Positions 22,060-24,758 of a stretch of 48,097 bases of DNA are shown here, in pieces (position 1 is the stretch's first letter; every line of letters starts with the position of its first letter). The stretch lies in IMG/VR virus record IMGVR_UViG_3300030106_005189, positions 1 through 48,097 of that record. One strand, 5' to 3'. Source of the stretch: a virus. The notes beneath the pieces are model-generated. The model made no database searches, was not told the DNA's origin, and saw only the letters and a program-made list of their open reading frames with translations. Both the position numbers and the translations under genes were made by a program.

Positions 22060-23661
22060 ATGGACGTTGCTAAATTTAAAAATATTTTCACAGGCTTAAA
22101 TAGAGCTAGAGGCCTTTTTACATTTGAAGAAGAAGACGTAAGCAACGGTAAAAGTGTAGGCTTATATAGAACAATAAAAGAGGAGCCTTTATTAAAACAC
22201 TATCAATCACACCTTGAAGGTAAGTATCCATCACTTGGCATTGTGCCTATTAGAGATGACAACACAGCAACATTTGGTTGTATTGATATTGATGAATACC
22301 CACTTGATCATAAAAAAATTATCACAGATATTAGAAAAAAAGATTTACCTTTAATAGTTTGTCAATCTAAGTCTCTAGGGGCGCACATTTATTTGTTTTC
22401 TAAAGAACCTCAACCGTGTGTTACATGGGACAAGACACTTAGATCAATTGCATCTGTTTTAGGTTTTTCTGGAAAAGAAATATTTCCAAAACAAAAAAAA
22501 CTTAATGGTAAAGATGATGTGGGATCATGGATTAATTTACCTTACTTTGGTGAGATGAGATATGCATTTTTAGATTCTGGAGAGGGTGCATCATTAGAAG
22601 AATTTTTTGCAATGTATGATCAATACGTTTGTGATGACATTGAAAAAATATCAATTCAAAAGAAAATTATTAAAACTAAAAAATCAAAATTTAAATTTGA
22701 CATGGCACCTCCTTGCTTAAAAATTATGGAGGGCAAAGGCTATCCTCAAGGCACTAGAAACAATGGTATATTTAATGTTGGTGTATTTTATAGAAAAGCT
22801 TTTCCAAATGATTGGGAGGATTTATTACAAAAATTTATAACAAAATATATGCCAGAGATGAAACCAGAAGAAGTTATCAGAGAGAAAAAACAAATCGCTT
22901 TAAACAATGATGAAGGAGAGATAAAATATTTTTATCGATGTAATGATGTGCCAATAAAAAATCATTGTAATAAAGAATTATGTGCAACAACTAGATACGG
23001 AATAAAAAAAGAAGAGGTATTTGCAGACTATCCAGTAGTCACTGAGCTGCACATACTAGATAGTCAACCCCCTGTTTATTATGTGTATGCAGATGTAAAT
23101 GGTAAAAGGTTAAAAACTAGAGTTGATGATGAGGATCATCTTTTATATGCAAAACCTTTTAGAAAAGTTTTTAATAGAACTCATTTAATAAATTTTCCAA
23201 AAGTTTCTGAAAAAGATTGGGATGCTCTTATTGATCATTTGTATAAAAATAAAATAATTATTGAGGCACCAGAAGATGCATCGACATATGCAGAGTTTAT
23301 GGATTACCTAAATGAGTTTTGTGCTACCAATGGACGTGGATCAAAGAGCATGGACGAATTATCATTAGACAGAGCCTTTATTGATGAGGAAAAAGAAAAA
23401 ATATATTTTAAATTAGAAACATTTCAAAAATGGTTACAGAATACTAAAAATTATAAAAAGAAACGAAGCACGCTAGTAAGTTTCTTACGTGATGAAGCAA
23501 AAGCAGAATCTACTTTTGTACAGGTAAACAAGAAAAGTCAACGGTGCTGGGAATTAGATTTTAAATTAGACGACACCACAATAGAAAAACCAGATCTTAA
23601 AATGAATACAAAAGATAAAGACGTATTAGGATCTACAGATGAAGAGGAGATACCATTTTAA
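22060..23661 (+). CDS. Archaeo-eukaryotic-type primase (TOTE-like)
   Basis: 533 residues. TFGCIDIDEYPLD gives the catalytic DxD (Asp76, Asp78) and CQSKSLGAHIYLF gives the SxxxxxH pocket (103-109), as in AEP primases of the TOTE/PrimPol type. A Cys cluster at about 307-322 (RCNDVPIKNHCNKELC) may bind zinc. The last residues are DEEEIPF, like the SSB tip. It makes primers for the family A polymerase. There is no clear ribosome site at the ATG, which lies 20 bases after the terminator. Confidence 0.82.
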   Translation: MDVAKFKNIFTGLNRARGLFTFEEEDVSNGKSVGLYRTIKEEPLLKHYQSHLEGKYPSLGIVPIRDDNTATFGCIDIDEYPLDHKKIITDIRKKDLPLIVCQSKSLGAHIYLFSKEPQPCVTWDKTLRSIASVLGFSGKEIFPKQKKLNGKDDVGSWINLPYFGEMRYAFLDSGEGASLEEFFAMYDQYVCDDIEKISIQKKIIKTKKSKFKFDMAPPCLKIMEGKGYPQGTRNNGIFNVGVFYRKAFPNDWEDLLQKFITKYMPEMKPEEVIREKKQIALNNDEGEIKYFYRCNDVPIKNHCNKELCATTRYGIKKEEVFADYPVVTELHILDSQPPVYYVYADVNGKRLKTRVDDEDHLLYAKPFRKVFNRTHLINFPKVSEKDWDALIDHLYKNKIIIEAPEDASTYAEFMDYLNEFCATNGRGSKSMDELSLDRAFIDEEKEKIYFKLETFQKWLQNTKNYKKKRSTLVSFLRDEAKAESTFVQVNKKSQRCWELDFKLDDTTIEKPDLKMNTKDKDVLGSTDEEEIPF

Positions 23662-24758
23662 GACATTTAGATTTATTTAGTGGCATAGGTGGTTTTAGTT
23701 TAGGACTTGAAGCTACTGGTGGTTTTGAGACTGTTGCTTTCTGTGATATAGATAAATATTCACGACAAGTTTTACAGAAGCACTGGCCCCATGTTAAACA
23801 ATACGAAGATATAAAGGAGTTGACTTATGAAAGACTTAAAGCAGATGGACTTCTTCCCATCGACATCATCACAGGAGGATACCCTTGCCAACCTTTCTCC
23901 CTCGCAGGTAGAAAAAAAGGTGAAGAAGATCCAAGACACCTCTGGCCAGAGTATTTTAGACTTATCAAAGAACTCAGACCAACTTGGGTTATTGGAGAAA
24001 ATGTTAGTGGACACATTAAACTTGGTCTCGACACCGTACTTGAGAACTTGGAGAGCGAAGGTTACTCCACAAGGACGTTTAGTATTTCAGCTTCGAGCGT
24101 CGGTGCAAACCACCAAAGAGAAAGAGTCTGGATCTTGGCCCACACCAAACGCAAGAGATTGGAAAGATTCAATGAACAAAGTTCCTCCTTCAGTGGGAAA
24201 AACAAGGGGACACAGCTTGGGAATGAAAGTAGCACAGAGACTATGGAGAACTCCAGACAACATGGCGGGGGGATCGAACTTACCAGGAATAAAGAAAGCA
24301 TTGGACGAGGGTCATCTAAAGAGACCGAGTGGTCAACAAATACAGATAAGACTAGAGGATCAAGTGAAAGAACCAAGACTATGGCCAACACCAAGGGCCT
24401 CACAGGCGATGAACGAGAATTTAGAAACAGTCGAGAAGAGAGTAATGAAAAAAGGATTTCTAGGGGCAAAATTAGAGGAAAAAATAGCGATCTGGCCGAC
24501 TCCAGCAGCTCACGAAGGCAGGTTGGGTTATCAAAGGAGAGACACAGGGAAGAAGGGCACGCAGAAAAGTTTGACAACGAAAGTAATAGACAAAGAGGGT
24601 GGCAGAGAGAAGACAACTGGGCAATTGAACCCAACGTGGGTAGAGTGGCTCATGGGATACCCAATAGGGTGGACAGACTTAAATGTCTCGGAAACAGCCT
24701 TGTTCCACAAATCCCCTACTACATCGGATCAGTAATTTTAAGGACTATAAATGATTAA
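23655..24758 (+). CDS. dcm: C5-cytosine DNA methyltransferase, ATT start, dual-coded
   Basis: 367 residues. Motif I LDLFSGIGGFSLGLE, motif IV GGYPCQPFSLAG (catalytic Cys), motif VI GENVSGH, motif VIII NHQRERVW and motifs IX-X RVDRLKCLGNSLVPQIPYYIG are all present. The frame opens after a TGA at 23640 and has no ATG, GTG or TTG before motif I. An ATT at 23655, 5 bases after GGAG, is the best start. Residues between motifs VIII and IX are Ser/Arg/Glu-rich with LAHT, MENS, MANT and LADS repeats. A second protein is read from the same bases in the +1 frame. Confidence 0.88.
   Translation: MLRHLDLFSGIGGFSLGLEATGGFETVAFCDIDKYSRQVLQKHWPHVKQYEDIKELTYERLKADGLLPIDIITGGYPCQPFSLAGRKKGEEDPRHLWPEYFRLIKELRPTWVIGENVSGHIKLGLDTVLENLESEGYSTRTFSISASSVGANHQRERVWILAHTKRKRLERFNEQSSSFSGKNKGTQLGNESSTETMENSRQHGGGIELTRNKESIGRGSSKETEWSTNTDKTRGSSERTKTMANTKGLTGDEREFRNSREESNEKRISRGKIRGKNSDLADSSSSRRQVGLSKERHREEGHAEKFDNESNRQRGWQREDNWAIEPNVGRVAHGIPNRVDRLKCLGNSLVPQIPYYIGSVILRTIND
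23827..24735 (+). CDS. Overlapping WPTP-repeat protein encoded inside the methyltransferase gene
   Basis: 302 residues in the +1 frame of the methyltransferase. The ATG at 23827 has AAAGGAG 7 bases upstream, which is of no use to the methyltransferase frame there. WPTPNARDWKD, WRTPDNMAGG, WPTPRASQAM and WPTPAAHEG are followed by LNPTWVEWLMGYPIGWTDL. I recall WPTP...LNPxWVEWLMGxPxGWT proteins as a family found next to phage cytosine methyltransferases, often annotated as methyltransferase-associated. The function is unknown. A target-recognition or partner subunit is conceivable. Ribosome site plus family motifs argue for real translation. Confidence 0.72.
   Translation: MKDLKQMDFFPSTSSQEDTLANLSPSQVEKKVKKIQDTSGQSILDLSKNSDQLGLLEKMLVDTLNLVSTPYLRTWRAKVTPQGRLVFQLRASVQTTKEKESGSWPTPNARDWKDSMNKVPPSVGKTRGHSLGMKVAQRLWRTPDNMAGGSNLPGIKKALDEGHLKRPSGQQIQIRLEDQVKEPRLWPTPRASQAMNENLETVEKRVMKKGFLGAKLEEKIAIWPTPAAHEGRLGYQRRDTGKKGTQKSLTTKVIDKEGGREKTTGQLNPTWVEWLMGYPIGWTDLNVSETALFHKSPTTSDQ

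Follow-up and report, generated by a model that had tools for sequence, protein, structure and literature searches.

The repeated MANT/LADS-type tetrapeptides of a viral C5-cytosine methyltransferase look like the by-product of a second protein read from the same DNA one base later. This +1 protein (hereafter beta) is encoded by a gene nested within that of the methyltransferase (hereafter alpha), and probably carries the target-recognition region and motif IX of the enzyme, whereas alpha carries motifs I-VIII and X. The pair is best read as a naturally split C5 methyltransferase whose two chains share DNA, and about two thirds of a sample of viral C5 methyltransferases appear to be built the same way. 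This reading is held with considerable confidence, although in the absence of biochemical data or a model of the complex the heterodimer, the reading of DNA by the repeats, the target sequences and a role in protecting phage DNA from host restriction remain inferences.

The repeats and the +1 open reading frame

The window analysed here is a 48,097-nucleotide stretch of viral DNA (IMG/VR record IMGVR_UViG_3300030106_005189), and the features of the locus are collected in Table 1. At 24135 (ttg gcc cac acc), 24243 (atg gag aac tcc), 24381 (atg gcc aac acc) and 24492 (ctg gcc gac tcc) alpha reads LAHT, MENS, MANT and LADS, and the same bases one position on read WPTP, WRTP, WPTP and WPTP. The shared DNA is TGGCCNACNCC-like. 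These readings, and the proposal that such repeats are kept by selection on the other frame, formed the original prediction; the readings are exact and the proposal is supported, although the identity of the +1 protein was not recognized at that stage.

The +1 frame is open for 303 codons. When the synonymous codons of alpha were shuffled, the median longest +1 run was 91 and the maximum 259, and 0 of 20,000 shuffles reached 303; the +2 frame has 30. Alpha itself has no ATG, GTG or TTG before motif I. However, a Shine-Dalgarno-like stretch followed by ACC ATT is conserved in close relatives (the related loci L001, L083 and L081; L numbers denote loci fetched for comparison), so alpha may start at AUU, which is rare.

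Table 1. Coordinates of features at the nested methyltransferase locus of the window.
Position	Strand	Feature	Support
23655..24758	+	alpha, C5-cytosine methyltransferase catalytic chain, motifs I-VIII and X; may start at AUU (23655)	Pfam PF00145 E 1.8e-46; phrog_363 E 1.6e-78; AF2 large domain mostly pLDDT 75-97; start inferred from conserved ACC ATT
23645..23649	+	AGGAG Shine-Dalgarno for alpha, 5 nt before AUU	Sequence; similar A/G-rich stretch before ACC ATT in L001, L083 and L081
23813..23819	+	AAAGGAG Shine-Dalgarno for beta, 7 nt before its ATG, inside alpha codons	Sequence
23827..24735	+	beta, nested +1 gene (302 aa), WPTP modules and motif IX	ORF; phrog_1008 E 3e-36; selection in the +1 frame
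23667..23700	+	alpha motif I (LDLFSGIGGF), alpha-only DNA	Invariant columns in 93 alphas
23877..23900	+	alpha motif IV (GGYPCQPFS), overlaps beta N-terminus	Invariant columns G74, P76, C77, Q78 and S81
24111..24131	+	alpha motif VIII (HQRERVW)	Invariant columns
24135..24626	+	alpha spacer between motifs VIII and X with the LAHT/MENS/MANT/LADS shadows; same DNA codes the beta WPTP modules	AF2 pLDDT mostly 35-55 and no secondary structure in alpha; near-neutral in alpha frame, conserved in beta frame
24136..24147	+	beta module 1 start, WPTP	Sequence
24244..24255	+	beta module 2 start, WRTP	Sequence
24382..24393	+	beta module 3 start, WPTP	Sequence
24493..24504	+	beta module 4 start, WPTP	Sequence
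24625..24681	+	beta motif IX, LNPTWVEWLMGYPIGWTDL	Nearly invariant in 133 betas; mutually exclusive with in-frame LTPREC-type motif IX in a sample not chosen by it; in one chain with motif X in L211, L331, L376, L403 and L446
24687..24707	+	alpha motif X (LGNSLVP)	Invariant columns G345, N346 and P350
19836-20300, 22060-23661, 18291-19796		Neighbours, including a Dam-family methyltransferase, a TOTE-type primase domain protein and an SNF2-related helicase	

Selection on the two frames

All 162 related loci examined, fetched with the +1 protein, with the methyltransferase, or from phage records, have the methyltransferase in frame 0 and the WPTP protein in +1. The start of beta is conserved, with a Shine-Dalgarno-like pentamer before 98 of 148 beta ATGs compared with 224 of 2,332 other ATGs inside alpha. 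By alpha codon position, substitutions per site are.070/.038/.220 in alpha-only DNA,.242/.112/.099 in the spacer and.087/.058/.230 after beta ends. Rates per mutational opportunity were obtained from 45 close sequence pairs. In the spacer between motifs VIII and IX, alpha-changing/beta-silent changes run at 0.73 of doubly silent ones (omega alpha, 95% CI 0.51-1.20) and at 0.92 of the alpha-only synonymous rate, whereas alpha-silent/beta-changing ones run at only 0.065 of doubly silent ones (omega beta, 0.040-0.104). The spacer therefore evolves almost neutrally at the amino-acid level in the alpha frame while the +1 frame is strongly conserved, so the repeats are conserved for beta. In the IV-VIII region both frames are constrained, alpha more so. 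No stops were seen in the alpha spacer where 52.5 were expected, although this is partly ascertainment because most loci were chosen with complete frames. In the set chosen only by the beta motif IX signature, the alpha frame is broken near the spacer in only a few loci (L171, L200, L211, L218 and L273).

The coupling between the two sets of repeats is general and far beyond chance. Among alphas with at least two [LMVIF]A[NDHY][TSAP] tetrapeptides after motif VIII, the +1 frame is open across them in 121 of 121 of the nested set and in 31 of 31 of a sample drawn by motif IV alone, and 340 of 351 and 94 of 100 tetrapeptides, respectively, read [WLFY]xTP in +1. The condition set to refute the original prediction, namely many such enzymes with stop codons in +1 near the repeats, was thus not fulfilled. 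Eighteen methyltransferases with canonical in-frame motif IX have one such tetrapeptide and no WPTP. In 17 relatives beta runs past the alpha stop, and there 28 WPTPs persist although the alpha frame has 167 stops in 1,996 codons.

Evidence that beta carries motif IX

Alpha contains the catalytic motifs I, IV (PCQ), VI (ENV), VIII and X, but motif IX is absent from its frame. C5 methyltransferases carry motif IX with the recognition region in the small domain (PMC3404938). Beta matches PHROG 1008 in two stretches (best 13-144; a search of its own genome covers profile positions 39-166 and 155-287), and its nearly invariant end, LNPxWVEWLMGxPxGWTDL, is read here as motif IX. Most of the 133 betas in which this was observed were fetched with this signature or a close one. 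Sampling viral contigs by motif IV DNA only gave 120 loci, and of the 106 not cut at the contig edge 66 have the IX signature in +1 and none in frame, 18 have canonical LTPREC-type IX in frame with neither IX nor WPTP in +1, and 22 score neither, most of them with WPTP in +1. This classification rests on motif IX because a full-length beta HMM proved unsuitable; the beta N-terminus overlaps alpha IV-VIII and so matches the +1 shadow of ordinary methyltransferases. Motif IX is short, and its homology consequently rests on position, exclusivity and the fused forms.

Rearranged relatives place beta-family sequence in one chain with other methyltransferase motifs. L403 matches phrog_363 (29-371) and phrog_1008 (243-372, E 3e-32) in one ORF, and L211 matches phrog_1008 at 283-326 (E 1.6e-10) inside a PF00145 match, although L211, L218, L403 and L426 could be frameshifted variants or assembly errors. 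In L331, L376 and L446 alpha stops just after motif VIII and the +1 chain carries the recognition region, IX and then X. L200 (767-1688, reverse strand of the locus as fetched) has alpha I-VIII, beta and motif X as separate ORFs, and L335 (around 3552) has a free-standing beta beside an alpha whose nested beta looks decayed.

AF2 gives a confident large domain for alpha, which Foldseek aligns to M.HaeIII and M.HhaI over about 170 residues, and a disordered VIII-X spacer. The AF2 model of beta alone is poor (pLDDT 64, pTM 0.34) and Foldseek found no match to a solved structure with E <= 0.001. A beta profile searched against solved structures gave only apolipoprotein chance hits (E 0.33 or worse). 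The poor model and its lack of a match might be expected of a chain that folds with its partner, but are not evidence for it.

Taken together, alpha is best seen as the catalytic Rossmann domain plus motif X, with a mostly unconstrained tether between VIII and X that has to stay open, and beta as the chain supplying motif IX and a target-recognition region built of exchangeable WPTP modules. The two chains should assemble into one active enzyme.

Modular composition and distribution

One hundred and fifty betas contain 404 WPTP modules with a median length of 41 aa and 0-7 modules per protein. Module 2 of the window has close copies as first, second or only module elsewhere, and among close module pairs (60% identity or more) 786 are at different index and 605 at the same. 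This is module exchange; that each module sets a target is inferred. In L063 a WRTPTAID... domain ending in a helix-turn-helix-like stretch (ELSEKSGIEYTTVEHWF) is fused to the beta C-terminus, while in others it is free-standing (downstream of beta in L010 and L114).

The nested layout, with the methyltransferase in -1 relative to the IX signature, is present in 117 of 120 viral loci fetched by that signature (leaving out the two copies of the window's own genome), in 78 of 80 loci in bacterial or archaeal genome records, many of them MAGs, and in named phages including N15, K1G, Paenibacillus larvae and Rhodobacter phages. One Roseovarius MAG chromosome (OX638333.1, L299-L303) has five places with the same match statistics for the nested methyltransferase, and L222 has two nested methyltransferases in tandem, the second with a damaged motif X. 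Annotation is uneven in the nine records examined: both genes are annotated in Bloom and K1G, one gene at the methyltransferase in Erwinia phage 59, N15, RcMcDreamy, C72C1, R9.1 and plasmid pRM11060-1, and the beta frame only in Salmonella phage W5_chr3 (PP996006.1, 36061-36990), where it is labelled ‘Mte8-like’.

A tree of alpha I-VIII places nested forms together with 2 changes between nested and contiguous layouts. However, part of those columns are dual-coding, and on alpha-only columns (55 columns, 4 changes) one clade is not rejected (p-AU 0.107), so a single origin is likely but not shown. A tentative extension, somewhat less likely than not, is that one large clade of phage C5 methyltransferases, probably of single origin, moved its recognition domain and motif IX into a nested +1 gene that is often unannotated, letting phages swap recognition modules without touching the catalytic chain and giving one enzyme several specificities.

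If the split-enzyme reading is right, many phage ‘DNA cytosine methyltransferase’ entries describe half an enzyme. Cloning alpha alone could give inactive protein, and specificity prediction from the annotated chain would read a frame-shifted shadow, whereas specificity could be followed by sequencing the WPTP modules. It would also be one of the more widespread cases of long same-strand gene overlap in phages, with both proteins in one enzyme, and offers a clear system for how overlapping genes divide selection.

Alternative explanations

Could a single polypeptide instead be made by two programmed frameshifts, with ribosomes slipping to +1 for the recognition region and IX and back again for X? 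This would give the canonical motif order in one chain, and the single-chain forms L403 and L211 exist. It nevertheless appears unlikely, as beta has its own Shine-Dalgarno and ATG about 100 codons before the first module, its N-terminal part is under selection (the IV-VIII alpha-synonymous/beta-nonsynonymous rate is 0.445 of the alpha-only synonymous rate), the alpha frame is kept open through the spacer in nearly all loci, and a free-standing beta exists in L335. It is similarly improbable that beta is a separate overlapping phage protein, for example an anti-restriction factor, with no part in the methyltransferase. Beta has no Pfam or solved-structure match, but loci with beta lack canonical motif IX in alpha and vice versa, beta-family sequence occurs inside single-chain methyltransferases, and in L331, L376 and L446 beta carries motif X.

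That the repeats belong to alpha as odd recognition-domain repeats, with the +1 frame a by-product of codon usage, might be suggested by the clear identity of alpha as a C5 methyltransferase and the normal location of the recognition region between VIII and IX. This is contradicted by the substitution data, by the persistence of modules where alpha has stops and by the codon shuffles, and is very improbable. Within the split-enzyme reading it remains quite possible, though not favored, that the WPTP modules are structural repeats of beta and do not each define a target, given the lack of specificity data and the poor beta model; the variation in module number and the near-identical modules at different positions are as expected of exchangeable recognition units.

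Comparison with known systems

Among phage proteins, K1G ORF30 (‘Mte8-like’) is annotated as nested in ORF31 (‘C-specific methylase’) and matches PHROG 1008, as does beta. These are labels only, and in the records and papers examined no text gives its role as a motif-IX/recognition chain. Nor was a nested recognition/motif-IX gene in phage C5 methyltransferases described in the literature searched, although most subscription papers lay outside that search and a prior description cannot be excluded. The ShiLan element of actinophage methylases (PMC11855218) is likewise a stretch that is open in the methylase frame but whose real product is in another frame; however, it is a homing HNH endonuclease insertion and not a part of the enzyme.

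M.AquI (CYCGRG) is a split C5 methyltransferase of two polypeptides in which both IX and X are in the small chain (PMC3404938). The minority layout of L331, L376 and L446 resembles it in having motif X in the second chain, while in the window X stays in alpha and beta is nested. The arrangement in the window is that of M.EcoHK31I (YGGCCR), in which the large chain has motifs I-VIII and X and the small chain has motif IX (PMC3404938, citing Lee, Kam and Shaw 1995); the small chain of M.EcoHK31I may also be read from an alternative frame inside the large one. The split itself is therefore already known. What differs is where the recognition region lies and its modular make-up: the predicted TRD of M.EcoHK31I is assigned to the larger subunit (PMC3404938), whereas here the large-chain spacer is near-neutral and predicted disordered, and the recognition region is placed in beta, often as several exchangeable modules.
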